IMG/VR virus record: IMGVR_UViG_3300030106_001806
Location: 1-22,171 of that record
Direction: 5' to 3' (one strand)
DNA from: a virus
Length of the DNA stretch: 22,171 bases
Shown: piece by piece, positions 4,971-22,171 of the stretch
How positions within the stretch are numbered: position 1 is the stretch's first letter
How the letters are laid out: each line of letters begins with the position of its first letter
Translations under genes and position numbers: made by a program
The notes under the pieces: generated by a model
The model's database searches: none
What the model was told of the DNA's origin: nothing
What the model saw: the letters and a program-made list of their open reading frames with translations, nothing else

Positions 4971-6572
4971 ATGACTGATTTTGCAAAAGAACTTGTGAGT
5001 AGATTAAATTATTTAGAAACTTACAGAAAGTATTGGAATACACATTATCAGGAACTTGCAGACTACATGCTTCCTGAGAAATCAGATATTGTGAAAAAAA
5101 GGAGCAGAGGTGAGAAAAAAACAGAAAACATCTTTGATGGCACAGCAGGACAAGCTGTGGATCTTTTATCTTCTGCTTTACATGGCATGCTTACATCTGG
5201 TGCTACACCTTGGTTTCACCTTGACATTAAAGATGAAAACATTGGTAGAGATGATGAGGTAAAAGAATTTTTAGAAAACGCATCCATGAGCATGATGCGT
5301 GGATTCAATAGATCAAACTTTGAAAACGAAGTGCATAGTTTGTATGTTGACTTAGTTGTGTTTGGAACAGGTTGTATGTTTATTGAAATGGAAAACAATA
5401 CACTCAGATTTTCTACACGACACATATCAGAGTTCTTTATACAAGAAAACCAGTTTGGAATGGTTGACACAGTTTTTAGAAAATACAAATCACCTGTTCG
5501 ACAAGTCGTGCAAAGATTTGGTATTGATAATGTAACAGAGCATCTAAAAAAGAAATTTGATAAATCACCAGATGAAGAAGTAGAATTATTACATGTGGTG
5601 TTGCCTAGAATTAACAGAAATCCAGAAAAGCCAGATAATCAGAATATGCCTTTTGCATCTTTTTATATTGATATGGAAACAAAAAGATTTTTATCCATTG
5701 GTGGCTTTGAGGAATTTCCCTATGTAGTTCCTCGTTTTCTTAAAAGCACAGGAGAAATCATGGGTCGTTCCCCTGCTATGACTGCTCTCGCTGATGTGAA
5801 AATGTTGAACTTGATGAGTAAGACCATCATTCAGGCAGCGCAAAAGCAAATTGATCCTCCTCTGCTTGTGCCTGATGATGGCTTCATTTTGCCAGTAAGA
5901 ACACAGCCTGGTGGTCTTAATTTTTTTAGAGCAGGAACAAGAGAAACAATATCACCACTCAATACAGGCGCAAACATTCCTATAGGTTTGAACATGGAGC
6001 AACAAAGAAGAGAAGCTATCAGAAGTGCTTTCTATGTTGACCAGTTGCTTAGTGGCACATCACCAAACATGACAGCTACAGAAGTTGTGCAAAGACAAGA
6101 AGAAAGAATGAGAGTGATTGGGCCTGTGCTTGGTAGATTGATGAATGAAATGCTAAGACCTTTGATAGATAGAGTTTTTGCACTCATGCTTAGAAACGAA
6201 ATGTTTACAATCCCACCAGAGATATTACAAGGCAGAGATATTGATATTGAATATGTATCTCCACTTGCAAAAGTACAAAAGTCAACAAGTCTTAATTCAA
6301 CAATGAGAGCATTAGAAATACTGTTACCACTTTCACAAAGCCTTCCTATTGGGGATCATTTAGATGAAGATGGTCTTGTTAGACATGTTACAGATAGTCT
6401 TGGTGTACCAAAATCAGTTCTGAGAACAAATGCTGAGATACAGCAAATCAGAGAACAAAGACAACAGATGCAGAAAGAGCAAATGGAAAGACAAAGAGAA
6501 CAAGAAGATGTTAATACAGCATTACAAGGCGCACAAGCAGTAAGGATGGTCGGTGGTGGTCAAGGCTCTTGA
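4971..6572 (+). CDS. Portal (head-tail connector) protein
   Basis: Forms the dodecameric ring at the unique capsid vertex through which DNA enters and leaves, and to which the tail adaptor binds. The 533 residues match the T7 gp8/BPP-1-type head-to-tail connector family. Recognisable parts are the N-terminal LNYLETYRKYWNTHYQELADYMLP, the segment FDGTAGQAVDLLSSALHGML followed by TPWFHL, and the later GRSPAMTALADVKMLNLMSK and TATEVVQRQEE. The C-terminus (about 485-533) is Gln/Glu/Arg-rich and likely a helical barrel. Length is typical. The start directly abuts the preceding TAG, with AGGA upstream, so coupling is likely. The 3' end overlaps the next gene by 20 bases. Confidence 0.93.
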   Translation: MTDFAKELVSRLNYLETYRKYWNTHYQELADYMLPEKSDIVKKRSRGEKKTENIFDGTAGQAVDLLSSALHGMLTSGATPWFHLDIKDENIGRDDEVKEFLENASMSMMRGFNRSNFENEVHSLYVDLVVFGTGCMFIEMENNTLRFSTRHISEFFIQENQFGMVDTVFRKYKSPVRQVVQRFGIDNVTEHLKKKFDKSPDEEVELLHVVLPRINRNPEKPDNQNMPFASFYIDMETKRFLSIGGFEEFPYVVPRFLKSTGEIMGRSPAMTALADVKMLNLMSKTIIQAAQKQIDPPLLVPDDGFILPVRTQPGGLNFFRAGTRETISPLNTGANIPIGLNMEQQRREAIRSAFYVDQLLSGTSPNMTATEVVQRQEERMRVIGPVLGRLMNEMLRPLIDRVFALMLRNEMFTIPPEILQGRDIDIEYVSPLAKVQKSTSLNSTMRALEILLPLSQSLPIGDHLDEDGLVRHVTDSLGVPKSVLRTNAEIQQIREQRQQMQKEQMERQREQEDVNTALQGAQAVRMVGGGQGS

Positions 6573-6795
6573 AAACTTAAAATATATGTATCGTCAAGTT
6601 TTTACTACCGATTCTGGAAAAAAGGTGTTAAAAGATTTAGAAGGGCGTTGCAACTTTCGTATCACAACTTATGTGAGCAACGATAGTAATGGAACTGCTT
6701 TTGAAGAAGGCAAGAGAACTGTTTACTTGCACATTTTAAATATGTTAGAAGAGGAAACAAATGAACGAAACAGAACAACAGGCAATCCAAACTGA
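6553..6795 (+). CDS. Bbp19-like small phage protein
   Basis: The 80-aa chain contains MYRQVFTTDSGKKVLKDLEG and a C-terminal FEEGKRTVYLHILNML. These fit the Bbp19-like domain found between portal and scaffold genes in BPP-1-type podoviruses; its biochemical role is unknown to me. The start is uncertain. The longest frame opens with GTG at 6553, with AAGGA about 8 bases upstream. An in-frame ATG at 6586 would give 69 residues but has no nearby ribosome binding site, so GTG is preferred. It overlaps the portal gene by 20 bases and the scaffold gene by 35 bases, so three genes interlock here. Confidence 0.7.
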   Translation: MVVKALENLKYMYRQVFTTDSGKKVLKDLEGRCNFRITTYVSNDSNGTAFEEGKRTVYLHILNMLEEETNERNRTTGNPN

Positions 6796-7621
6796 ACAGC
6801 CACAGCCAAGTGTCGCAGTAGAAACACCTGCTGAAGTGGCAAGTGGTAGTGGATCTCGAAGTGAGTTTCTACAACAATTACCAGAAGAAATAAGAGAACA
6901 TCCAAGTTTACAAAGCATCAATGATGTTGGCAATCTAGGACTTTCTTTTGTAAATGCACAAAGACTAATTGGTGCAGATAAGTTACCACTTCCGAAAAAT
7001 CCAACAGAAGATGATTTAAATAATATTTACTCAAGGCTTGGTAGACCAGATGAGCCAAGTGGCTATGCTCTGCAAGCTGATGGTCAAATGCTTTCTGAAT
7101 CAGATGTAAATACTGTATCAGATGTTTTTCATAAACTTGGTTTATCAAAGACACAAGCAAATGGTATTTTAGATTATTACAGAAGCAGCATACAGCAAAC
7201 TACAGAAGCAATGACAAAAGATGCTGCACAACAAAAAACTGATGTTGAGCAAAAACTTAAAGCAGAATGGGGTGCTGATTATGATGCAAAAGTGCAAATG
7301 GCAAACCAGGCAGTATCAGATATTGTAGGAAAAGATTTACTTGATATTGAACTCAAAGATGGAACAAAAGTTGGAAATCATCCTGCTTTTATAAAAGCCT
7401 TTTCAAACTTTGCAGAGTTTAAAAGGTCTGTAACAAAAGAAGATACAATTTCAGAAAACGCTGTAAATTACAGAATGAGTCCTGCTGATGCACAGGCTAA
7501 AATAGATGCAATCATGCAGGATAAAAGTCATGCTTATTGGAATAGAAAAGATACTATAGGCAGACAAAAAGCAGTTCAAGAGGTACAAGATTTATACGAG
7601 ATGGTAAGTGGAGCAGCGTGA
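6761..7621 (+). CDS. Capsid scaffolding protein
   Basis: Probable internal scaffold that guides capsid assembly and then leaves or is degraded. The 286 residues are acidic, Gln/Ala/Asp-rich and low in aromatics. A disordered N-terminus (TEQPQPSVAVETPAEVASG) precedes a segment FLQQLPEEIREHPSLQSIND typical of podoviral scaffolds. GRPDEPSGYAL and a helical region (QQKTDVEQKLKAEWGADYD) follow, then a C-terminal motif MSPADAQAKIDAIMQDKSHAYWN, which is common in this family and likely binds capsid protein. Position between the portal and the major capsid gene supports the call. AGAGGA lies upstream of the ATG, inside the preceding gene. Confidence 0.85.
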   Translation: MNETEQQAIQTEQPQPSVAVETPAEVASGSGSRSEFLQQLPEEIREHPSLQSINDVGNLGLSFVNAQRLIGADKLPLPKNPTEDDLNNIYSRLGRPDEPSGYALQADGQMLSESDVNTVSDVFHKLGLSKTQANGILDYYRSSIQQTTEAMTKDAAQQKTDVEQKLKAEWGADYDAKVQMANQAVSDIVGKDLLDIELKDGTKVGNHPAFIKAFSNFAEFKRSVTKEDTISENAVNYRMSPADAQAKIDAIMQDKSHAYWNRKDTIGRQKAVQEVQDLYEMVSGAA

Positions 7622-9258: not shown

Positions 9259-9855
9259 ATGCCATCAGTAGTAGATATATGTAATGAAGCAATGGATTTA
9301 TTAGGTGCAGCAACAATAACTGCACTTACAGAAAATTCAAAAGAAGCAAGACTTTGTAATAGAAGATTCTCAACAGTAAGAGATGCAACACTTCGATCAC
9401 ATAGTTGGAACTGTGCAATAGCTAGAGCCGATTTAGCAGCAGATAGTACAGCGCCTTCTTTTGGTTTTGCAAACCAGTTTCCTTTACCTACTGATCCTTT
9501 TTGTTTGAGAGTTCTATCTTTTTTTACATCAAATGTAGATGCAGAAATATCTCCTTACGACAGTCAAGTTATGTATAAAGTTGAGGGAAGAAAGATACTT
9601 TCAGATGAAGGAACTTGCAGAATAACTTACATAGCAAGAATTACAGATACAGAACAGTTTGATAGTTTGTTATCTAATGCTATTGCTTACAGACTGGCAT
9701 CAGAAACAGCTTATGCAATAACAGGTAGTACAACAGTTGCACAGTCAATGTATACTATGTATGAACAAAAGGTAAGAGAAGCAAGGGCAATGGATGCTCT
9801 TGAAGGTAAGCCAGATAAATTAGTTGCTGATGAGTTTACAAACATAAGGTTGTAA
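9259..9855 (+). CDS. Tail tubular protein A / head-tail adaptor (T7 gp11-like)
   Basis: Builds the ring joining portal and nozzle. The 198 residues match the T7 gp11-type family: VDICNEAMDLLGAATITAL at the N-terminus, then RLCNRRFSTVRDATLRSHSWNCAIARADL at about 31-60. A hydrophobic PLPTDPFCLRVLSF follows, and the C-terminal half has YRLASETAYAI and MYEQKVREARAMD. Length is typical. The start is the first ATG after the hairpin that closes the head module; its ribosome site (AAAGG) is weak. The nozzle gene begins two bases after its stop. Confidence 0.9.
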   Translation: MPSVVDICNEAMDLLGAATITALTENSKEARLCNRRFSTVRDATLRSHSWNCAIARADLAADSTAPSFGFANQFPLPTDPFCLRVLSFFTSNVDAEISPYDSQVMYKVEGRKILSDEGTCRITYIARITDTEQFDSLLSNAIAYRLASETAYAITGSTTVAQSMYTMYEQKVREARAMDALEGKPDKLVADEFTNIRL

Positions 9856-9856
9856 T

Positions 9857-12250
9857 ATGGCTAGAGTATCTACGATCTTAACTAACTTTCGAGCAGGAGA
9901 GTTGTCTCCCAAACTATCAGGTCGTATTGATTTGCAGAAATATAGTGAGGGTTGTGATACTCTTGAAAATATGTTGGTGTTCCCCTCTGGTGGTATAACT
10001 CGCAGACCAGGCACATCTTTTGCTGGAAGAAGTAAAGATGATGGAAAAGTAAAACTTGTCAACTTTGAATTTTCAGATGAACAGGCTTATGTGCTAGAGT
10101 TTGGCGCAAACTACATAAGGTTTTTCAAAGATGGTGGAATACTTACAGAAGCAACAAAAACTATAACTGCAATAACAAAAGCAAATCCAGCAGTCGTTAC
10201 TGCGACATCACATGGTTATAGTAACGGAGACAGAGTTTTTGTATCTGGTGTTGTTGGCATGACAGAAGTAAACAACAGAGAGTTTACTGTTGCAAATAAA
10301 ACAACAAATACATTTGAGTTATCAGGTATAAACAGTTCAAGTTTTACAACCTACACATCAGGTGGCACAAGTGGAAAAATAGTAGAAGTTTCAACAACTT
10401 ACAGCGTAACTGAGATATTTGAGATTAACTTTGCACAATCAGCAGATGTATTGTTTATCGCACACAAATCACACGAACCAGCAAAACTTACAAGAACAAG
10501 CACAACAAGTTTTACACTAGCTGATATTGATTTTACAGATGGCCCATATTTAGACGAAAACATAAGCACAACTACAATATACGCAAGTGCTGCTACAGGA
10601 ACAGGAATTAATCTAGTTGCATCAGCAGCGACTTTTGAAAGTGGTCATGTTGGCGCTTTGTTTAGATTTAGAGAGATTATCGAGACAAGCCATGATGCTT
10701 GGGCAGCTTCAACAAGTTATGCGCAAAATGATACTGTAAGAAACGCAGGTAATGTCTACAAGAAAACAAACTCAGGCTCACATACAAGTGGCACGACTCC
10801 TCCAGTACACACAACTGGCACAGAGACTTATGGTAGTATTGATTGGGAGTTTCAGCATAGTGGAACAGGTTTTGTCAAGATAACAGGTTTTACAAGTTCA
10901 ACACAAGTTGCAGCAGATGTGAAAAGCACATTGCCTGCTTCAGTTGTAGGCTCTAGCAATCCAACAACAAAATGGTCAGAAGGAGCATTTAGTTCTGTTC
11001 GTGGCTTTCCAAAGGCTCTTGCATTTTACGAAGAGAGATTATTCTTTGCTGGTACTACACATCAACCACAAACTATCTTTGGTAGTGTGTCTGCTGATTT
11101 TGAAAATCACACGCCAGGAACAAATGATGATGATGCAGTAAATGTTACTATAGCATCAGACCAAGTAAATGTTATAAAGCATTTATTACCAGGTCGTTTT
11201 TTGCAGATACTCACAACAAGTGCTGAGTTTACTCTTTCTGGTGGCACAGGCACAACTGCTGTTACACCAACGAATGTAAATGTGTTGAGAGAAACAACTT
11301 TTGGAACATCACAAGTAAGACCTTTGCGTGCAGGTAACTCAACGATACTTGTTCAAAAAGGAACAGAGAAAGTAAAAGAAATAACATTTGATTTAGATAC
11401 AGATGGACTACTTGGCGTTGATTTGACTGTGCTTGCAGATCACATAACAAGAGGTGGTTTGACGGATATGATATGGCAACAAGAACCTGAGTTAATACTT
11501 TGGTTTGTTGGTGCTGATGGTGCTTTGATTGGTCTTACATATGATAGAGCAAATGGAACTGTTGGATGGCATGGACACACTCTTGGTGGTAGTGGTGTAG
11601 TAGAAAGCATTACAGCGATACCAAGTGGTGCAGAAGATCAAGTATATCTGAGTGTTAAGAGAACAATCAATAGCGCTACAGTAAGACATATTGTTTTTCT
11701 TAAATCAATAAACTTTGGAACAGATGTAGCAGATGCCTTTTTTGTAGATAGTGGCTTGACCTACTCTGGATCTGCAACGACAACAATTACAGGATTAAAT
11801 CACCTTGAGGGAGAAACAGTCCAAATACTTGCAGATGGTTCTGCGCATGCAGACAAAACAGTATCAGGTGGTACAGTAACTTTAGATAGATCAGTTACAA
11901 AGGCACATATTGGACTTGGCTTTTCAAGTGTTGTAAAAACTTTGCGTTTGGAAGCTGGTGCTAATGATGGCACATCTCAAGGAAAAATAAAAAGAATACA
12001 TGGTGTAACAGCAAGATTTTTAGATACAGTAGGAGCAGAGTTAGGCCCAGACACATCAAATCTTGATAGAATACCATTTAGAGATAGCAGTATGGCTATG
12101 GACACAGCAGTACCAATGTTTACAGGAGATAAAGAAATATCTTTTCCAGCAGGATATGATAATGATGCACAAGTTGTAATAAGACAATCACAACCATTGC
12201 CTATGACTGTTGTTGCTATAATGAGGAGGTCAAATACTTTTGATGCTTAA
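9857..12250 (+). CDS. Tail tubular protein B / tail nozzle (T7 gp12-like)
   Basis: Forms the tail nozzle that anchors fibres and channels DNA. The 797-aa protein opens with the family signature STILTNFRAGELSPKLSGR, followed by LENMLVFPSGGITRRPGT. Two inserted surface modules are visible. Residues about 102-177 (AVVTATSHGYSNGDRVFVSG...) resemble the FCCH-type beta domain often found in phage tail proteins. Residues about 281-330 (AWAASTSYAQNDTVRNAGNVY) resemble a small carbohydrate-binding module; a related WAASTSY segment occurs in the fibre gene. Later, GFPKALAFYEERLFFAGT and PRPLRAG-like segments are typical of the nozzle core. The length is close to T7 gp12 (794). Confidence 0.9.
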   Translation: MARVSTILTNFRAGELSPKLSGRIDLQKYSEGCDTLENMLVFPSGGITRRPGTSFAGRSKDDGKVKLVNFEFSDEQAYVLEFGANYIRFFKDGGILTEATKTITAITKANPAVVTATSHGYSNGDRVFVSGVVGMTEVNNREFTVANKTTNTFELSGINSSSFTTYTSGGTSGKIVEVSTTYSVTEIFEINFAQSADVLFIAHKSHEPAKLTRTSTTSFTLADIDFTDGPYLDENISTTTIYASAATGTGINLVASAATFESGHVGALFRFREIIETSHDAWAASTSYAQNDTVRNAGNVYKKTNSGSHTSGTTPPVHTTGTETYGSIDWEFQHSGTGFVKITGFTSSTQVAADVKSTLPASVVGSSNPTTKWSEGAFSSVRGFPKALAFYEERLFFAGTTHQPQTIFGSVSADFENHTPGTNDDDAVNVTIASDQVNVIKHLLPGRFLQILTTSAEFTLSGGTGTTAVTPTNVNVLRETTFGTSQVRPLRAGNSTILVQKGTEKVKEITFDLDTDGLLGVDLTVLADHITRGGLTDMIWQQEPELILWFVGADGALIGLTYDRANGTVGWHGHTLGGSGVVESITAIPSGAEDQVYLSVKRTINSATVRHIVFLKSINFGTDVADAFFVDSGLTYSGSATTTITGLNHLEGETVQILADGSAHADKTVSGGTVTLDRSVTKAHIGLGFSSVVKTLRLEAGANDGTSQGKIKRIHGVTARFLDTVGAELGPDTSNLDRIPFRDSSMAMDTAVPMFTGDKEISFPAGYDNDAQVVIRQSQPLPMTVVAIMRRSNTFDA

Positions 12251-13119: not shown

Positions 13120-15462
13120 ATGCCACAGATACCAGTTTACAATAAAGGACAAGGAACAACAGTAGACTTAGCTACTGGTTCATTATCACCTCAAGCAAGT
13201 GTGCAAGCCTTTACTGCACCTGGAAGAGCAACAGAAAATTTTGCTAACAATGCACAACAGATAGCATTTAATTTTGGACAAGCTGAAAAGAAGGCCTTAG
13301 GAGATGCTGCTTCTTCTGATATACAATCAAAGTTTTTAGACGAAGCAAACAATAAAATCTTAACAAGTCAAACAACAGATACAGAAACAGCTAAAAAAGA
13401 AATAAATAGTTTGGTTGATAAGTATACCAACAAGATAGCTGTAGATCATCCTAATTTAACAAGAAGTCAAATAAGAGGTATTACAAACAACTTGAAAGAA
13501 CTTGGTGTAAGAGCAGGTACACAGCATAGAAAGCAAAGTTTTGCAAGAGGTAGAATTGTTGAAAGTAAAAATAACGATCAACTGATTTTAAAGTTTAGAG
13601 ATACACTTAAAACACTTTCCAAAGATAATCCTGTATATCAGGCTAATATTGGAGGTGTGAAAAAAATATATGAGCAAGCAGAACTCAATGGTTCAAATAA
13701 AGGCTTGACACATCCAACTTTTAAAAGTTTTGAGAAAGCTGTGTTAAGTGATGAAGTTTTTTTAAAAGTAAATACTGGAGATATTACAGGTGCAGAAAAC
13801 TTAGTTAAGTCAAGCACAATTATTGATGATGAGCAAAAGTTTAAATTACTTAGAACACTTAGATCAGAAACAACTGTAAAACAAAATGAACTATACAATC
13901 AAACTATTGAAAATATAGATCAAGAAGATTTTACAACAAATGATGTTAAATTAATTACTGATAAACTTGAATTAAATCAACCTTTTAGCCATGAACTTTC
14001 TAGTGGTAAGACTGTTAGTTTTAGTCCAGAGTCAATAGGAACTGGTAATAAATTAAAACTTATAAATTTTCTTAATAAAAAAGCAAAACAGACAGTTGAG
14101 AAAGATGCAAATCAAGCAACTGCTTTAATTAACAATGCTCCATTTACAGATACAAAAACATTTTCCCTAATTGCATCAGAGTCTTACGGAGATCTTGAAG
14201 ATGGTATAGCACAAAAAAGTATTAGCAGTAGTGCAAATACTTCTGCATCTAAAGCAGAACAGTTGGTAGAAATTTTTAAAGTAGATCCATCAGCAGTTGA
14301 TATTAATACGATAACTGAGAATATTAACAAGGCAAGATATCTTCTTACTACAAATATCAAGGGTAATGCTCTTGTGAACACAGTAGATTTTGGCAAATCA
14401 TCAAGTGCTTTGTTAGAAAAAATTAACAAAACAGAGATTGATTTAAGAAAAGCAGCGCTTGAAAACCAAAGACTTAATACTGGTATTGATTCTATAATTG
14501 TAGGAAATTTTGAATTTGTTAAAGATAATTATACACCAGCAGAAGTTGAAAAGATGACGGACTCTGTATTGAAAAACAAACCTATTGATGAGCAACTTTC
14601 TTTAATACAAGCCAATGGTTTAGTGAGTAATCAACTTAAAACTGTTTTAGCAAATGGTGTTGAAGAAGGAACAGGAACAAGTTTTGACCAATTCATAACT
14701 TCTGTATCGGAAAAAGTAGAAATTTACAAAAACCTTAAATTAACTGGCCAAGGTTTGATAAATCACACAACGCAAGCAGAAAGATCTTTTTATGAAGCAA
14801 TACTTTTAAATGAAAGTTTAGGTTTTGACAGAGAAGATGCTATAAGACGAGTAGGTTTGGCAAATCAAACAAACATATCTCCAACAGATGTTGACATCAA
14901 ATATCAAGCAATAGAAAACGCATCACAAAAAATTAAAAATGGTTTAGATGGTGTTTTTGGAACGGATGTTTTTAACTTATCTGCAATGAGGATCAAGGCA
15001 GAAAAGTATACAAAATTTTTACTTAGATTTGGCACAAATAAAGACATTGCTATTAAAACAGCAGTTGAAGATTTAAAAAACAGTCATGTTTTAATAAACA
15101 ATCATCTCATCACAAAGTTTGCAAACTTACCATCAAACTTTGAAGAAAAAACAAATATATTGGCAGAAAAGTTAAAAGAAGAAAATCCAGAGTTAAGGGA
15201 TGCAGAGGGCATTGCTTTTATTCCTATGGATGGAAGAGTTGACAAGTTTCATGTATATGTGGATGGAGAGCCACAATTTGGTAGTGGCTACATAATATCA
15301 AAAGAAGATTTTGATAAGGCCATAGAATTTAAAAGAGAAAAAATTAAAGTAGAAGCGCAAACAAAAATACAATCAACAAAAAAACTTACATCAGTTCTTA
15401 AAGAAAATGTAGAAAATTTAAAAGAAACTCAAGAAACAGTTTTTGGATTTGCAGGAGATTAA
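13120..15462 (+). CDS. Internal virion protein, T7 gp15-like
   Basis: Large core protein expected to be ejected and to form part of the trans-periplasmic DNA channel. The 780-aa length is close to T7 gp15 (747). The N-terminus is low-complexity (GKQGT-like, then TGSLSPQASVQAFTAPGRATENFANN). The rest is long, helical, Lys/Asn/Glu-rich and without cysteine clusters or membrane helices. The call rests on length, composition and position between gp14-like and gp16-like genes; sequence similarity is too diffuse for me to see. The start is ATG two bases after the preceding stop, with only a weak GAG upstream. The 3' end contains the AGGAG that appears to serve the next gene. Confidence 0.75.
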   Translation: MPQIPVYNKGQGTTVDLATGSLSPQASVQAFTAPGRATENFANNAQQIAFNFGQAEKKALGDAASSDIQSKFLDEANNKILTSQTTDTETAKKEINSLVDKYTNKIAVDHPNLTRSQIRGITNNLKELGVRAGTQHRKQSFARGRIVESKNNDQLILKFRDTLKTLSKDNPVYQANIGGVKKIYEQAELNGSNKGLTHPTFKSFEKAVLSDEVFLKVNTGDITGAENLVKSSTIIDDEQKFKLLRTLRSETTVKQNELYNQTIENIDQEDFTTNDVKLITDKLELNQPFSHELSSGKTVSFSPESIGTGNKLKLINFLNKKAKQTVEKDANQATALINNAPFTDTKTFSLIASESYGDLEDGIAQKSISSSANTSASKAEQLVEIFKVDPSAVDINTITENINKARYLLTTNIKGNALVNTVDFGKSSSALLEKINKTEIDLRKAALENQRLNTGIDSIIVGNFEFVKDNYTPAEVEKMTDSVLKNKPIDEQLSLIQANGLVSNQLKTVLANGVEEGTGTSFDQFITSVSEKVEIYKNLKLTGQGLINHTTQAERSFYEAILLNESLGFDREDAIRRVGLANQTNISPTDVDIKYQAIENASQKIKNGLDGVFGTDVFNLSAMRIKAEKYTKFLLRFGTNKDIAIKTAVEDLKNSHVLINNHLITKFANLPSNFEEKTNILAEKLKEENPELRDAEGIAFIPMDGRVDKFHVYVDGEPQFGSGYIISKEDFDKAIEFKREKIKVEAQTKIQSTKKLTSVLKENVENLKETQETVFGFAGD

Positions 15463-18400
15463 AATAGTTCTGAAACCAGAGAAGATTGAAAGAGCAAGAC
15501 CTTTTAGTTTATTAGAAGAGAAAAAGGCTCTTGATGATTACGAGAAGGCGCAAGACTCTGTTACATTTGCAAAGGCCACATCTGCTGCATTTGCTGAAGA
15601 TAATGCTATGTCATGGGTGTTTAATCAGCTTGAAGAATATGAAATAGATCCAGAATTTAGCTTAAATGACGAGGAGTTTGACGAACTTACCAAAGACATA
15701 CCTTTGGAATACCAAGACTTTGTAGGTGATGCAAGAAGTATGTCTCATGGAAGAAAACTCAGAGCAAATGTTTTGAACTCACTTGAGAACGAAAAAACAC
15801 TTGCAAAATACGGATGGGCAAGTTTACCTCTGCGTATTGCTGCTGCAACAATAGATCCTGTTGCTATTGGTGCTACTGTATTATCTGAAGGTGTTTTAGC
15901 GCCTGCAATATGGACTACGAAAGCAACAAGGCTTGGTAGATTTTTTAGAGGTGGTTTGACTGCTGGAGCAACATCAGCAGCTATTGAAGCCTACCTTGTT
16001 TCACAAAATCAAATAAAAGATCCATATGACATACTGTATGCAGCAGGTGGTGGTATGATACTAGGTGGTGCGACCTCAAGTATTTTTGGCAAAGCATCTA
16101 CACAGAACTATGAGAAGGCAGGTGCAAAGTTTGCAAATGATGCAAGTAAAGCACAAGCAAGTGATGTGGCACAATCTATGAAGGATAATGGCATTGAGGG
16201 TGTTGGCGCTATGGAAAATCCTATGTCTCGACCAATACAAATGGATGAAATGAGAAGAGGATCAGATGACAGAATTGAAGATGCTCAAGGTGCATCCCAT
16301 TCAACTTTTGGTAAAATTCGTTTTGATATGGTTGGTCAACTTAAATCTAGTAAAATAGCTACTTCAAGAAAACTTGCTGATTTACTCGCAGAGGATGCAG
16401 TTGATCCAGGTCAGATAACAGCAGACTTAATCAAGACCACAGAAACGAAAGCAACAACTGCTAGGTTTACAAGAGTTTATGATGATAGCTACACAAAATG
16501 GGCGAAGTCATTAAGCATAAATTATCTAGCAAGAGAATTTGGAAAATCAAAAAAAGATTTTGGAGTTTTAGTAGCAGATGAGATTGAGTTGCCTGGAAGC
16601 ACAACTAATCCACATATTGTTAATGCAGCTAATGCTTTTAGAAAAGAAATGGCAACAATGCTAAATAAAGCAAAAAAGGCAAATGTCAGAGGTTTTGATG
16701 ACATACCAGAAAATCCAACTTACTTTGCACACCTTTGGGATAATGCTAAATTTAGTGAAATAAGACAAAAATATGGCAAGAATGTAATTCCAGATTTACT
16801 TTCAAGTTCTTTAATAAGAGCCAATCCAAACATGGATGCTGATATAGCAAAAGCTATTGGCAAAGGTATGTATAAAAATATCGTAAAACGAAGCATGGGT
16901 ATGGATGCTGGTCTTTCAAGGATGTTTAGCACAAGTCAAAGAGAGGTATTGAAAGAAGTTCTTGAAGAAGAGGAACTTTTAAATAGCGCCCAAATTGAGT
17001 CTTTGTTAAATCAAATACATACAAAACCTGAAAAAGGTATGCCAAGAACAAGAAGAAGATTGAATTTTGATATTGAAACTACTGTTGAAGCAAGAGGGCA
17101 AGTTATATCAATCAAAGACCTCATGAATAGAAATACAGAAGAAGTTTTTAATATTTATGTTAATCAAGTTGTAGGAAAGACAGCACTAGCACGCAAAGGT
17201 ATTTTAAGTGATTCAGACTTTCAGAAAAGGTTAGATGACATTGTTGAAGAAGCAAGAGGTTTAGGAATTGATGCAACAGGTGATGTAGAAAAATTAAATG
17301 TCTTATATCAACTTATATCAGGTAGGCCAAGTCCAAAAGTGTCAGATCCAAGTGCGCTTGGAAATAGATTAGCAAGACTTTTATTAGATTACAGCTTCAT
17401 AAGAGTTATGAATCAAGTAGGTTTTGCACAGGTAGCAGAACTTGGAAATGCTGTCAGTATAGATGGTGTAACTGGTTTGTTGAGAGTTTTACCAGAATTC
17501 AAATCAATGCTTAAAAGAGTTCGTAATGGAGAAATAGAAGATAGTGTTATAAATGATATTGAAGCATTTACTGGTATTGGTGCTGATAGATTAATTCATA
17601 ATGCAGTAAACAAGTATGATGCAGAAGATATGTTAGCAAAGGGTAGGGGTGGTTTTTTAAGTAATATTGTTGATAAAGGTTTAAATGTTGTTCAGCCTTT
17701 AAAAAGAATTACAGCAGACATCTCTTTGATGGCTCAAGTAACTCTAGCACTTGAAAGAGCAGCAGCAAGAATAGCTACACAACAACTTGTAGATTTATCT
17801 TTTGGAATTAAAAGTATTAATTTTGCAAGATTGGGCAAGGGAACAAGGCAACAAGATATAGCAAGAAGAATGAAAAGCCTTGGCTTGGATGATGCTATGA
17901 GTCAAAGAGTGTTTAATCAGATTAGAGAAAACGCAGTTCTTGCTCCATCAGGTTTTTTTGGAAATTCAAGAAAAGTAAGAAGAATAAATTTAGAACAATG
18001 GGCAGATGAAGATGCTAGAGATGCTTTTGTTTTTGCAATAGCAAGATGGACAAGACAGAGCATACAACAAAATGATGTTGGTAATTTAAATGTTCACATG
18101 ACTGGAACATTAGGAAAAATCCTTACACAATTTAGAACATTTATGCTTGTCAGTTATTCAAAACAATTTTTACATAATATAAACAGAAGAGACTTTGCTG
18201 CTTTTCAAGGAATGATGTATTCTGTTTTATTTGGTGGTTTAGCTTATACTTTACAAACTCATGTAAACAGTATTGGCAGAGATGACAAAGAATCCTTTTT
18301 AGAGGAAAGATTGTCTGTAACTGAAATAGGGAAGGCTGCATTTCAAAGAGCAGGATGGTTCAGTTTATTTCCAGCGGCGATTGATACAGGATTGTCGTTA

Positions 18401-18716: not shown

Positions 18717-20087
18717 ATGACAGTAAGTAGCACAACCACAAAGAATAGTTATTCTGGTAACGGAAGCACAACTGTTTTTGCTTATGCCTTCAAGATTTTT
18801 GCAGAAGCAGATTTAAAAGTTATTGTCCGTTCATCAACAGGTACAGAGACAACAAAGACACTAAATGCAGATTATACTGTTTCAGGTGTTGGTGTTACAA
18901 GTGGAGGTAATGTAACTTTTGGTTCAGCGCCTGCATCAGGCGAAACTGTTGTAATAAGAAGAGAAGCAGCGCTTACACAAACTACAGACTATACAGCAAA
19001 TGATCCTTTTCCTGCTGAAGATCACGAAAATGCACTTGATAAATTAACTTTTCACACACAACAACAGCAAGAAGAGTTAGACAGGGCAATAAAATTATCA
19101 AGAACAAATACAATGACATCTACAGAATTTACTGTAGGCGCATCTGATAGAGCAAACAAAGTTTTAGCTTTTGATAGTTCTGGTGAAATATCTGTAACAC
19201 AAGAATTAGGCACATTTAAGGGCAACTGGGCAGCAAGCACATCTTATGTTGTTCGAGATATAGTCAAAGACACAAGCACAAATAATATATTTATAGTAAA
19301 TTCAGCGCATACATCATCAGGAGCGCAGCCACTTACAACAAATGCAAATTCATCAAAATATGATTTATTGGTTGATGCAGCATCAGCAACAACATCTGCT
19401 ACAGCAGCAGCTACCTCTGCTACAGAAGCAGCAACTAGCGCAACAACAGCATCTACACAAGCATCAAACGCAAGCACAAGTGCAAGCACAGCATCAACTC
19501 AAGCTACAAACGCAGCGAATAGTGCCACAGCAGCAGCAGCGAGTGCAGCAGCAGCAGCGACAAGCGCAGATAATTTTGATGATGTGTACTTAGGTTCAAA
19601 GTCAAGTGAGCCATCAACTGATAATGATGGTGATGCACTAAATGCTGGAGACCTGTTCTTTGATACCACAGTAAATGCAATCAAAGTCTATACTGGTTCT
19701 GCTTGGCAAATTGTTTCCCAGGCATCATTAACATCTGTTGTTTCAGATACGACTCCACAACTAGGGGGTGATCTTGATGTAAATGGTAATGGCATTGTTT
19801 CTGTGTCGAATGGAAACATAGCCTTAACACCAAACGGAAGTGGCGTTGTTCGTCTTGATGGCAATGTTGACATACAAACAGGTGAGATTGTTCTTAAAAA
19901 TGGTGGTTCGCAGTCAAACATAAAATTTTATTGTGAGTCAAGTAATGCACATTACGCACAACTAACAGCACCAGCGCACTCTGATTTTTCAGGAAATGTT
20001 ACAATAGTTTTACCAGCGACAGGAGGTACTTTAGCGCTTACATCACAAATTGAAGATCCAACTGCATTGGCAATAGCTTTAGGATAA
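18717..20087 (+). CDS. Tail fibre protein with T7 gp17-like N-terminal domain
   Basis: Host-recognition fibre of 456 residues. Residues 1-125 form the T7 tail-fibre anchoring domain that attaches to the nozzle (STTTKNSYSGNGSTTVFAYA, later VVIRREAALTQTTDYTANDP and HENALDKLTFHTQQQQEELD). Residues about 168-218 contain a WAASTSYVVRDIV module related to one in the nozzle. Residues about 220-283 are a nearly pure Ala/Ser/Thr heptad-like tract, probably a trimeric coiled-coil shaft, encoded by GCA/ACA-rich repeats. The end has SAWQIVSQ, TPQLGGDLDVNGNGI and LPATGGTLALTSQI, beta-rich elements common in marine phage fibres. A GAGGT site precedes the ATG. The true receptor-binding tips may be the small proteins downstream. 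Confidence 0.9.
   Translation: MTVSSTTTKNSYSGNGSTTVFAYAFKIFAEADLKVIVRSSTGTETTKTLNADYTVSGVGVTSGGNVTFGSAPASGETVVIRREAALTQTTDYTANDPFPAEDHENALDKLTFHTQQQQEELDRAIKLSRTNTMTSTEFTVGASDRANKVLAFDSSGEISVTQELGTFKGNWAASTSYVVRDIVKDTSTNNIFIVNSAHTSSGAQPLTTNANSSKYDLLVDAASATTSATAAATSATEAATSATTASTQASNASTSASTASTQATNAANSATAAAASAAAAATSADNFDDVYLGSKSSEPSTDNDGDALNAGDLFFDTTVNAIKVYTGSAWQIVSQASLTSVVSDTTPQLGGDLDVNGNGIVSVSNGNIALTPNGSGVVRLDGNVDIQTGEIVLKNGGSQSNIKFYCESSNAHYAQLTAPAHSDFSGNVTIVLPATGGTLALTSQIEDPTALAIALG
19378..19563 (+). repeat. GCA/ACA-rich low-complexity tract inside the fibre gene
   Basis: About 186 bases encode alternating Ala, Ser and Thr (AATSATEAATSATTASTQAS and similar). Triplets GCA, ACA, AGC and TCA recur, with several runs of four to five GCA/GCAG units around 19529-19560. 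Such tracts can expand or contract by slippage and would change the length of the fibre shaft in whole codons. Confidence 0.6.
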
Positions 20088-20097
20088 GGAGTAATAA

Positions 20098-20445
20098 ATG
20101 GCAAACACATTTAAATTGGTAACAAAGGCAGGTGTAACGAGTGAGGATGTTATCTATACTGTAGCAGGTTCTACAACAACTGTAGTGCTTGGGATTATGT
20201 TAGGAAACACAACAACAAGTCAAGTAACAGTAACACTTACATTAAGTTCAGATACAGCAAACAGGGCAGGCGCTAACAATGAAGCAAATCAAGATGTTGA
20301 ATTAGTTACAAATGCTCCTATACCAGCAGGATCTTCATTAGAATTATTGTCAGGAAATAAAGTAAACATGGAAACTACAGATGTTTTAAAACTTACTGCA
20401 TCTGGAGCAACAGATATTGCGCTTTCAATTATGGAGATTACTTAA
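20098..20445 (+). CDS. Small tail-associated structural protein
   Basis: A 115-residue, beta-rich protein almost without aromatics. MANTFKLVTKAGVTSEDVIYTVAG at the start, AGSTTTVVLGIMLGNTT in the middle, and PIPAGSSLELLSGNKV...LKLTASGATDIALSIMEIT at the end resemble a widespread family of small phage tail/fibre-associated proteins in marine phages (the MANTFKN-type). Exact function is not established; a jelly-roll or collar-like role is inferred. AGGAG lies seven bases before the ATG. Its last codons, GGAGATTACTTA, also serve as the ribosome site of the next gene, whose ATG overlaps its stop by one base. Confidence 0.7.
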   Translation: MANTFKLVTKAGVTSEDVIYTVAGSTTTVVLGIMLGNTTTSQVTVTLTLSSDTANRAGANNEANQDVELVTNAPIPAGSSLELLSGNKVNMETTDVLKLTASGATDIALSIMEIT

Positions 20446-20894
20446 TGGCTTATGTTGGCAATCCTTTAGCTGCTAACTTTCAAACTTTACCATCTGTTGT
20501 AAGATTTAACGGAGATGGTTCAGACACAACCTTTGCACTAGGCAGAACTATAAGTTCAGTTCAAGAGATTATTGTTAGTGTAGATGGTGTAGTTCAAGAT
20601 AGTGCAGCGTATACTGTGCCAGATGGCTCAACACTAACATTTAGTGCTGCACCTTCAAGTGGTACTAACAATATATTTGTTTATTTTTTAGGATTAGCAG
20701 GTGAATCAATTACACCTACAGATCAGTTCAAAGGCAACTTTAAGGCAGGTGGTTTATTTAGAACTAATGCACAAACATTAGACTCAAACATAACAATACT
20801 TGCTACAGAAAATGCAAATGTAACTGGCCCTTTAACAATATCAAGTGGTGTAACATTGACAGTAGAATCAGGTGGAAGGCTCGTAACAATATGA
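20445..20894 (+). CDS. Short tail fibre-like protein with T7-tail-type beta domain
   Basis: The 149 residues carry one beta domain at about 14-85 (QTLPSVVRFNGDGSDTTFAL, then VQEIIVSVDGVVQDSAAYTV, then LTFSAAPSSGTNNIFVYFLG). It resembles the anchoring module of the larger fibre (compare YTVSGVG...VTFGSAPASGETVVI). The C-terminus (LDSNITILATENANVTGPLT, ending VTLTVESGGRLVTI) looks like the rungs of a small beta-helix. It is probably an adaptor linking later tip proteins or a short fibre by itself. It overlaps the next gene by four bases (ATGA), with GGAAGG upstream of that start. Confidence 0.7.
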   Translation: MAYVGNPLAANFQTLPSVVRFNGDGSDTTFALGRTISSVQEIIVSVDGVVQDSAAYTVPDGSTLTFSAAPSSGTNNIFVYFLGLAGESITPTDQFKGNFKAGGLFRTNAQTLDSNITILATENANVTGPLTISSGVTLTVESGGRLVTI

Positions 20895-21334
20895 GTGAAA
20901 TATTTGTAGATACAATACGAAAGACTGGTGGTTCACTAGGAACAGACATAAGAATTAAGAATACATCCGTGTATGAGTCTGATGGTGGTACAAGTGTTAC
21001 ACAGAATCTTGTACAAGGTTTAGCTAAAGCATGGTTTGCTTGTGATAATATGGCAATCATAGATTCTTTAAATTCAGCAGGACTAACAGATAATGGTACA
21101 GGTGATTTAACATTAACAGTTACAAATGCAATGGGTAATGCCAACTATTCAACTGGAATGGGAGCAGGTGGTAGTGCAGGTACTGATAGTTCAATAAGAA
21201 TTGTTGAAGGCATAGATGCTACTACAGCAAGAACTGCATCAGCTATTAGACTAAGACAAGGTTATAAACCTTCAAGTTTAACTAAACATGATGACTCCTT
21301 GTCCTCTATACAATTTTTTGGAGACCTAGCATGA
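20891..21334 (+). CDS. Tail-tip protein, array member 1
   Basis: The first of three tandem paralogues, 147 aa. The shared core is LAKAWFACDN...SAGLTDNGTGDLTLTVTNAMGNANYS at about 41-90, a domain I recognise as frequent at the ends of marine phage fibre proteins. The N-terminus (SEIFVDTIRKTGGSLGTDIR) is the usual short linker; the C-terminal third (IRIVEGIDATTARTASAIRL) differs completely from the other copies and is the likely variable surface. The protein ends GDLA. The codons of that ending (GGAGA at 21320-21324) provide the ribosome binding site for the next gene, which overlaps by four bases. Confidence 0.7.
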   Translation: MSEIFVDTIRKTGGSLGTDIRIKNTSVYESDGGTSVTQNLVQGLAKAWFACDNMAIIDSLNSAGLTDNGTGDLTLTVTNAMGNANYSTGMGAGGSAGTDSSIRIVEGIDATTARTASAIRLRQGYKPSSLTKHDDSLSSIQFFGDLA

Positions 21335-21720
21335 GTACCATTAAGACAAACACCTTAACAGGTACAACTTCAGCAGGTAGTATTCTTGTTACAGGAGAGG
21401 GTGGTTCTACCACAACAAACTTACAACAAGGATTGGCTAAATCATGGATTACATTTACATCTTCTTCGTCTTTTACAAATAGGGATAGTTTTAATGTAAG
21501 CACATTGACAGATGCAGGTGCAGGTTCAGCAACAATAACTATGACTAATGTTATGAGTAATATATATCATTCAGTTCAAGCTACATCAAATGATAATAAT
21601 TGTCATGCAGGTTCAGGTAACCACACAACAGCAGATTATCAAAACTTTTCAAAAAATAGTAGCCATAGTTTAGCTGATGCAACTTCACAATATGGTTCAG
21701 TACATGGAGATTTAGCATAA
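21331..21720 (+). CDS. Tail-tip protein, array member 2
   Basis: A 129-aa paralogue of its neighbours. The N-terminus (STIKTNTLTGTTSAGSILV) is a marine-phage fibre linker. The core is GLAKSWITF...DSFNVSTLTDAGAGSATITMTNVMSNIYHS at about 35-84. The C-terminal part (DNNCHAGSGNHTTADYQNFS...) is unrelated to the other copies and rich in His, Asn and Ser, suitable for surface contacts. It ends VHGDLA. GGAGA at 21706-21710 lies 9 bases before the next ATG, which shares one base with its TAA stop. Confidence 0.7.
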   Translation: MSTIKTNTLTGTTSAGSILVTGEGGSTTTNLQQGLAKSWITFTSSSSFTNRDSFNVSTLTDAGAGSATITMTNVMSNIYHSVQATSNDNNCHAGSGNHTTADYQNFSKNSSHSLADATSQYGSVHGDLA

Positions 21721-22109
21721 TGGCAAACGGAACAATAGCATTTGATACATTAACAACATCTGGTCAAATAACAGGTGGAACAGCTAAGTCTGTGGATACA
21801 GATTATCTTGTGACTGGTAGTGCAAAGGCTTGGGTTATTTTTAGTGGAGCAGATATTGAAACACCTTCTGGTCGTGGCAGCTTAAATATTGCTTCAATAA
21901 CAGACAATGGCACTGGAGATTATAACCCTGTTTATACTAATAATATGTCTGATGCTGACTATAGTGGGTCATTAACTTGTCACTCTCAAAGACATCATAA
22001 TATGAATACTCAAACAACAAGCACTGTTCAATTACTCATATTTAGTACCTCTAATAGTGCTTCTGATACAAGTGGCGTTAGAATGGTTGCAATAGGAGAT
22101 TTAGCATGA
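21720..22109 (+). CDS. Tail-tip protein, array member 3
   Basis: Third paralogue, 129 aa. The core is SAKAWVIFSG...GSLNIASITDNGTGDYNPVYTNNMSDADYS at about 33-81, the closest of the three to the common marine-phage form. The C-terminal variable part contains CHSQRHHNMNTQTT and STVQLLIFSTSN, again unlike the other copies. It ends AIGDLA. GGAGA at 22095-22099 sits six bases before the ATG of the next gene, with a four-base overlap (ATGA). Confidence 0.7.
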   Translation: MANGTIAFDTLTTSGQITGGTAKSVDTDYLVTGSAKAWVIFSGADIETPSGRGSLNIASITDNGTGDYNPVYTNNMSDADYSGSLTCHSQRHHNMNTQTTSTVQLLIFSTSNSASDTSGVRMVAIGDLA

Positions 22110-22171
22110 CAATAAAAACACCAAAGTTTCAAGGCACACATTTATGGGATAGATTGTGTTGGGCAAAAGAA
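22106..22171 (+). CDS. Start of a further gene, cut by the window edge
   Basis: Only 22 codons are visible, starting MTIKTPKFQGTHLWDRL. It begins with the same GGAGA-6-ATG arrangement as the tail-tip array and overlaps the preceding stop by four bases, so it is co-translated with the tail genes. The visible residues (THLWDRLCWAKE) do not match the linker of the three array members, so it may be a different tail or chaperone protein. No function can be given. Confidence 0.5.
   Translation, partial: MTIKTPKFQGTHLWDRLCWAKE

Follow-up and report, generated by a model that had tools for sequence, protein, structure and literature searches.

How can a run of small phage genes share one near-invariant peptide ending, GDLA, directly beside residues that cannot be aligned with one another? 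The genes concerned lie in the window, the first 22,171 bases of a virus record totalling 34,277 bases (IMGVR_UViG_3300030106_001806). The tail tubular protein B of this virus, a homologous structural protein, is ~45-50% identical to that of HTVC010P-type pelagiphages, which places the virus among the podoviruses of the broad HTVC010P-type group. It thus appears to be a marine relative of pelagiphage HTVC010P; HTVC010P-type phages kill the ocean bacterium SAR11. The answer favored here, with a probability of roughly 0.8, is that the locus provides fixed slots for tail-tip proteins with exchangeable C-terminal tips, and that a short box at the end of each gene is both the edge of the exchanged cassette and the ribosome site of the following gene. 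What keeps the ending near-invariant would then be the next gene's need for its ribosome site.

Gene map of the array

The following features were identified, all on the plus strand of the window unless marked as lying outside it.

18717..20087, + strand: T7-type tail fibre protein, the anchor, with an N-terminal domain and an Ala/Thr-rich stalk (PHROG 1640 / 13893 tail protein, E 1e-48 / 1e-44)
20098..20445, + strand: small structural-type protein before the adapter (the gene in the same place in phage HMO-2011, gp42, is annotated as a putative structural protein)
20445..20894, + strand: adapter 1, with a weakly T7-fibre-like N-terminus (PHROG 18673 tail fiber protein, E 3e-34)
20891..21334, + strand: slot A tip gene, 147 aa (PHROG 11355, E 5e-12)
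21320..21334, + strand: boundary box of A, GGAGACCTAGCATGA, encoding GDLA and stop, with the Shine-Dalgarno and ATGA overlap for gene B
21331..21720, + strand: slot B tip gene, 129 aa (PHROG 11355, E 3e-10)
21706..21720, + strand: boundary box of B, GGAGATTTAGCATAA, encoding GDLA and stop, with the Shine-Dalgarno and TAATG overlap for gene C
21720..22109, + strand: slot C tip gene, 129 aa (PHROG 11355, E 5e-13)
22095..22109, + strand: boundary box of C, GGAGATTTAGCATGA, with the Shine-Dalgarno and ATGA overlap for the following gene
22106..22171, + strand: start of the constant gene after slot C, which runs to 22540 outside the window
22551-22928, outside the window: second constant gene
23336-23794, outside the window: second adapter, similar to adapter 1
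Eight tip-gene copies in the whole record: 20891-21334, 21331-21720, 21720-22109, 22938-23336, 23791-24219, 24219-24638, 24638-25051, 25048-25491

A preliminary description, made from the sequence alone, had reported three adjacent GDLA-ending reading frames with a common core. These are present, but they are not the whole array: five further copies lie past gene C, making eight in the record, of which a search with gene A returned seven including itself and the reading of open reading frames added one more. The copies are ~30% identical to one another and retain the conserved core, and all eight end in GGA-GAY-YTA-(GCA or TCA)-stop, the copy at 22938-23336 ending GDLS. The region from 22938 to 25491 (4439-6992 in L008) forms a second array block, consisting of the GDLS tip gene, the second adapter and four GDLA tip genes. 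The variable part, placed by the description in the C-terminal third, is indeed C-terminal but comprises everything after LAKAW, about two thirds of the protein. In slot A, the slot-specific N-terminus occupies ~20891-21034, and from there to the stop the gene is exchangeable tip.

At the three junctions within the window, GGAGA precedes the next ATG (21331, 21720 and 22106) by 6, 9 and 6 bases, matching the reported range of 6 to 9. The junction at 20445, said to look the same, does so only at the DNA level: the gene at 20098..20445 ends in GGAGATTACTTAATG from 20433, with GGAGATT shortly before the next ATG, but the string is read in another frame (MEIT and stop) and the gene is unrelated. 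Adapter 1 matches PF03906 at E 2e-4, below the Pfam cut-off. The constant gene beginning at 22106 follows slot C in every complete array; it has no match in Pfam, PHROG, NCBIfam or PDB and possibly serves in fibre assembly. Elsewhere, the record encodes a GTA-type 3TM holin (26671-27084), an M15 peptidase endolysin (27824-28273) and a C-5 cytosine DNA methylase (31760-32848; PF00145, E 4e-45).

The GDLA ending as a putative ribosome site

For comparison, 302 loci were gathered by scans with the internal virion protein, the adapter and genes B and C, followed by an iterated profile search, the alignment of the eight copies being too diverse to scan the collection. The contigs come from one collection and are non-independent samples; slots were labelled according to gene order. 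Among 597 non-redundant homologues compared at their 3' ends, 535 end exactly in GDLA and 590 carry a Shine-Dalgarno-like tetramer within the last 20 coding bases.

Codon usage within the ending is strongly constrained. Of the 535 GDLA ends, 525 have GGA as the Gly codon and the other 10 have GGG; GGT and GGC are absent here, although they account for 62% of the Gly codons of these genes. The Ala codon is GCA in 509. The end of the gene overlaps the next start codon in 517 of the 525 testable cases. Variation amounts to 0.83 bits per codon at Asp, 1.79 at Leu and 1.03 at the stop, against 0.13 at Gly and 0.34 at Ala. The positions free to vary are the third base of Asp, the first and third bases of Leu, and the stop, whereas the constrained Gly and Ala positions are those on which GGAGA and the A of ATG depend. 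The homologues share ancestry, so a simple probability would overstate this codon bias; the free and constrained positions of the same box serve as an internal control.

Departures from GDLA point the same way. All nine GDLA genes with a non-GCA Ala codon before TGA retain a start codon, either as an ATG shifted to -1 or as GTG or TTG. GGAG is retained in the variants GELA, GALA (GGAGCT), GVLA (GGAGTA) and GGLS (GGAGGG), SDLA genes without GGAG have TAGGAGATATGATG directly downstream instead, and the Shine-Dalgarno is shifted in two genes ending GDLGET or GELGET. In Nostoc phage Nsp-JY18 (66% GC), one gene ends GETNA, encoded GCGGGGAGACAAACGCATGA; the DNA string therefore persists in another frame. 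Microcystis phage Mel-JY33 (67% GC) still encodes GDLA as GGAGACCTCGCATGA, yet GGA accounts for 6 of the 91 Gly codons in the genes counted.

A wider set of 162 diverse homologues was grouped by distance to the next gene. Where the next gene overlaps or abuts, 13 of 17 coding ends contain a Shine-Dalgarno-like site, versus 2 of 118 where the next start lies at least 7 bases past the stop (Fisher p 5e-13); the tail thus tracks gene spacing. The overlapping or abutting genes end in GDLA, GSLA, GETNA, GGQA, GDQ, GGR or GGNS. None of the 118 spaced genes ends in GDLA; most end in VAIFR or similar, with the Shine-Dalgarno after the stop, and at intermediate spacing FGD occurs with GGAGAT-TGA-TCC-ATG. 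In other gene contexts, homologous domains end IFR, FG, FGGR or FGGNS, and the wider set shows that the tip domain can do without GDLA. As a separate observation, many other phages (L319-L398) carry (N/S)VAIFR endings whose DNA, GTCGCCATCTTCCGCTAA, is conserved from one tandem copy to the next; this may be an alternative conserved cassette edge lacking an embedded ribosome site.

These comparisons bear on the possibility that GDLA is purely a structural or assembly motif closing a beta-sandwich or trimer, the overlap with the ribosome site being a by-product of biased codon use. The near-universality of GDLA fits this, as does its place after the last strand in the model of gene C, where the adjoining block reaches pLDDT 93. 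Yet codon bias would not explain why the third base of Gly is never T or C, or why GGA is used in a phage of 67% GC that otherwise seldom uses it; with homologous domains ending differently elsewhere, the dependence on spacing largely refutes the idea, which is improbable.

The arrangement is that expected of translationally coupled overlapping genes, with the start overlapping the stop (ATGA or TAATG) and the Shine-Dalgarno inside the upstream coding end. Embedding is in itself not unusual, because 183 of 357 other overlapping junctions on the same contigs, about half, also contain a Shine-Dalgarno-like site; what is unusual is its near-constancy (590 of 597) across otherwise unrelated tips. 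The exclusive use of GGA or GGG, the overlap with the start, the survival of the Shine-Dalgarno after loss of GDLA and the absence of the tail in spaced homologues together indicate that the ending is shaped by ribosome-site function. The claim that each gene end carries the start signal of the next therefore stands on codon bias, overlap and spacing dependence alike. The box would accordingly be predicted to drive translation and to couple successive genes translationally.

Exchange of tips between slots and phages

In close relatives with kilobases of 94-97% DNA identity, the N-termini of A, B and C are the same but the tips are not. This is the pattern of a modular tail-fibre locus, in which near-identical phages combine a constant N-terminus with a hypervariable C-terminus. 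Aligned to the window by BLAST, the relatives show edges at 21022-21049, 21320, 21443-21450, 21705 and 22095. In L011 an edge lies at 21320, the first base of box A, and L066 is 98.9% identical to the window from 21705 onward; in both, slot B retains its N-terminus and has a replaced tip. N-termini are at least 95% identical in 411 pairs, of which 394 carry unrelated tips.

N-terminus and tip follow different histories. Over profile columns 1-40, identity is higher between genes of the same slot than between genes of different slots (0.76 vs 0.44 in the first ten columns), whereas from column 41 to the end the two classes agree within 0.01 (0.23/0.22, 0.47/0.46, 0.11/0.11). By this measure, the N-termini are slot-specific and the tips keep no trace of their slot. 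Near-identical tips (92-98% DNA identity) occupy different slots, with sharp edges: the slot-A tip of the window matches the slot-B tip of L206 at 293 of 300 nucleotides (98%), and the slot-E tip of L188 equals the slot-A tip of L190 at the protein level. Tips also pass between phages, since phages sharing tips of 90-98% identity often have adapters and other constant genes that are only 45-85% identical. As regards intragenomic conversion between tips, no pair within a genome reaches 50% identity, a level at which only one or two pairs would be expected by chance.

The edges of the exchanged unit are exact. It had been suggested that breakpoints be sought at the GGAGA junctions, and they are found there: in 1,341 same-slot pairs with unrelated tips, the per-base average identity, 0.32 before GGAGA, reaches 1.00 at its first G. 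In 30 pairs with the same tip in different slots, identity drops immediately past the stop, to 0.33, and the middle base of the stop is at 0.5. The stop codon itself follows the slot (A, TGA in 95 of 97; B, TAA in 102 of 106). The exchanged unit is the C-terminal tip of ~300 bases, from AAR-NNN-TGG to GGAGAYYTAGCATRA. Short conserved DNA thus lies exactly at the module edges: a sharp 15-base box on the right and, on the left, at the K codon of LAKAW, ~3-9 shared bases that cover the K and W codons only. The earlier view of the whole gene as a self-contained cassette cannot be kept, as N-termini and stop codons belong to the slot and the swapped unit is the tip.

Tip diversity is extreme, with 448 clusters at 70% identity from 551 tips and a Chao1 lower bound of ~1,500 tip types for the sampled loci. 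Very fast point mutation or a diversity-generating retroelement, acting without exchange, could produce such diversity; it would hardly place near-identical tips with sharp edges in different slots, and no reverse transcriptase (PF00078) was matched in the virus record, which may be a fragment. This explanation is very improbable. The array was likewise rejected as a retroelement target, no reverse transcriptase being found in the record and the variation arising by exchange.

Slot number and slot occupants

Across 173 non-redundant loci the gene order is adapter, tips, two constant genes, zero or one tip, second adapter and further tips. Of 109 complete first blocks, 77 have three tip genes between the first adapter and the constant gene, 31 have two and a single block has one. 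In 25 of the 31 two-gene arrays, and in the one-gene array, the adapter is followed by a gap of 300 bases or more; in the cases read, the gap contains a gene whose N-terminus resembles that of slot A and whose tip is non-homologous. Because most first blocks have either three genes or a gene-sized gap, slot number is close to fixed while the occupants vary.

A freely expanding and contracting tandem array would account for complete first blocks with one, two or three copies and for second blocks with three or four tip genes after the adapter (7 complete second blocks). It would not be expected to leave three genes in 77 of 109 first blocks and a gene-sized gap in 26 of the remaining 32, nor to keep N-termini and stops specific to the slot, and is quite improbable. 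Of the proposal that copies are gained, lost and swapped, swapping between slots and phages is borne out; free gain and loss is not supported, because copy number is close to fixed. The suggested comparison with relatives gives the same division, GDLA being conserved and copy number hardly varying.

Slot-type N-termini joined to another kind of tip were also observed in L129, L137, L150, L154, L157, L165, L166, L174 and L189, and in HMO-2011 (L310) at 9626-10150 and 6357-6842; non-family slot tips are sometimes followed by a small extra gene. From these sequences, unrelated tip types appear to share the same docking segments.

Proposed mechanism and origin of the swaps

In the proposed mechanism, each slot gene would consist of a constant, slot-specific N-terminus of ~40-48 residues, presumably the docking part, and a C-terminal beta-sandwich tip. 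Tips would pass between slots and related phages as a ~300-bp cassette bounded on the left by AAR-NNN-TGG (the K of LAKAW) and on the right by the 15-base box GGAGAYYTAGCATRA. The box would do three jobs, encoding GDLA, supplying the Shine-Dalgarno of the next gene and forming, with its last bases, the overlapping ATG start of that gene (ATGA or TAATG). An incoming tip that ends in the box would therefore keep the next gene translated wherever it lands. The swaps themselves probably occur by recombination or annealing at short homology and are then filtered by selection for a working junction. Direct sequence evidence covers the box with its codon constraint, the independence of tip and slot, the breakpoints and the presence of one tip in several slots and phages.

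An alternative departs from this scheme solely in the origin of the swaps: illegitimate recombination would strike at random positions, the sharp edges reflecting selection for a working junction and fold, and the box would not be a recombination site. Phage mosaicism is accepted to arise in part by illegitimate joining (PMC3029335), and the left edge is so short that homology alone hardly explains the swaps. Homology between tips is evidently not needed, because a C1q-type tip occupies a slot in HMO-2011 and other non-homologous tips occupy slots in many arrays. Against this, the edges coincide base for base in many pairs and in different slots, and the 15-base box would readily serve as a patch of homology. 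Random joining followed by selection is a serious contender, at somewhat under an even chance; a crossover preference for the box and selection keeping the junctions would leave the same sharp edges, and sequence cannot tell them apart.

A more far-reaching version would make GGAGAYYTAGCATRA not only the protein end and the ribosome site but also the favored recombination site of a dedicated adhesin cassette exchange drawing on one large open pool of interchangeable tips; it is rather unlikely. If true, that pool would be common to the 34-kb pelagiphage relatives, 55-kb SAR116 phage types and freshwater cyanophages. Relatives of HTVC010P and HMO-2011 rank with the most abundant marine viruses. 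Fixed slots, a common tip pool and a junction at which translation of the operon continues with any inserted tip would offer a mechanism for matching receptor variation in their SAR11 and SAR116 hosts, and the GGAGAYYTAGCATRA box provides a simple handle for finding and counting tips in viromes.

A recombinase was sought among the minus-strand genes of the record without a profile or PDB match. One minus-strand gene at ~29.1-29.9 kb matches a 'recombination protein' of Pam5 with 44% identity across 41% of the gene. The minus-strand regions 28810-29873 and 30590-31492 encode a small protein whose acidic tail (DDDDEIPF) is SSB-like, the weakly Pam5-like gene and a possible nuclease, and represent a candidate recombination module without profile matches.

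Fold and putative function of the tips

Proteins A, B and C match the PHROG 11355 tail fiber protein between profile positions 11 and 130 of 131, and gene C also matches the PHROG 3484 tail fiber protein. Searches of the tips against Pfam and NCBIfam gave no meaningful match, and a sequence search of PDB nothing useful. Gene A alone recovered no cultured phage by tblastn; a more consensus-like member of the family did.

The AF2 model of gene C (pLDDT 82) is a beta-sandwich with low confidence at the N-terminus, its last strand (120-125) ending just before GDLA; the model of gene A (pLDDT 73.5) is all-beta from residue 44 onward. The best PDB fold matches are the phiAB6 tailspike and the receptor-binding domain of the cyanophage Pam1 tailspike (probability 1.00, E 0.014-0.2, TM 0.39-0.46 by query length, 9-18% identity), and with such E values the fold assignment is moderate. 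Among viral structures, tail fibres of Synechococcus phages such as Syn5 are matched as well. The natural reading is that the tips are tail-tip adhesins, for which receptor binding is plausible. The phiAB6 and Pam1 tailspikes are single large proteins, unlike the small separate tip genes described here.

Relation to known systems

In T7-like and in P2/Mu/lambda-type fibres, a conserved N-terminus carries C-termini that are exchanged as modules. In the portion of their report consulted, Mizuno et al. describe fibre C-termini and C1q genes of HTVC010P-related phages that under-recruit in metaviromes (PMC3909814), and a hypervariable lectin-type region in the same group is reported in the Skadi paper (PMC10504331). 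As in modular fibre exchange and in the metaviromic islands covered by that portion of PMC3909814, the present locus combines a constant anchor with a hypervariable, putatively host-recognizing C-terminal part. Unlike what is described there, it consists of seven or eight separate small genes that act as fixed slots with tips interchangeable between them, and its cassette edge doubles as the ribosome site of the next gene.

Boundary sequences guiding recombination have long been proposed at phage mosaic junctions and are not identifiable at most of them (PMC3029335). The box resembles these as a short conserved sequence between variable modules but differs in lying inside coding sequence, in being constrained by translation start and in occurring up to eight times per genome. 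The descriptions of PHROG 11355 and 3484 leave the array, the slots and the overlapping ribosome site unmentioned. While modular tail-fibre exchange is known, a slot array with slot-independent tips and a box serving as both cassette edge and ribosome site was not found described in the open-licence literature; as far as searched, a fixed multi-slot array of this kind is undescribed.

The closest cultured counterpart is Puniceispirillum phage HMO-2011, a SAR116 phage whose gp28-gp42 run in the same order, from adapter through tip genes, two constant genes, a tip gene and a second adapter to further tip genes, with GDLA ends. These genes are annotated merely as separate tail fiber or hypothetical proteins. 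The slot after gp32 holds the C1q-type tip (gp31), and some slots hold other tips.

A profile search for the tip family in HTVC010P itself (L089) found none. Its fibre-like gp30-gp32 were considered as members and rejected: they look alike but are spaced and lie outside the family. Located at 14027-15985 of that genome, these three genes have the look of tandem paralogues with a different fold, spaced ~30 bases apart, and possibly form a parallel slot array.
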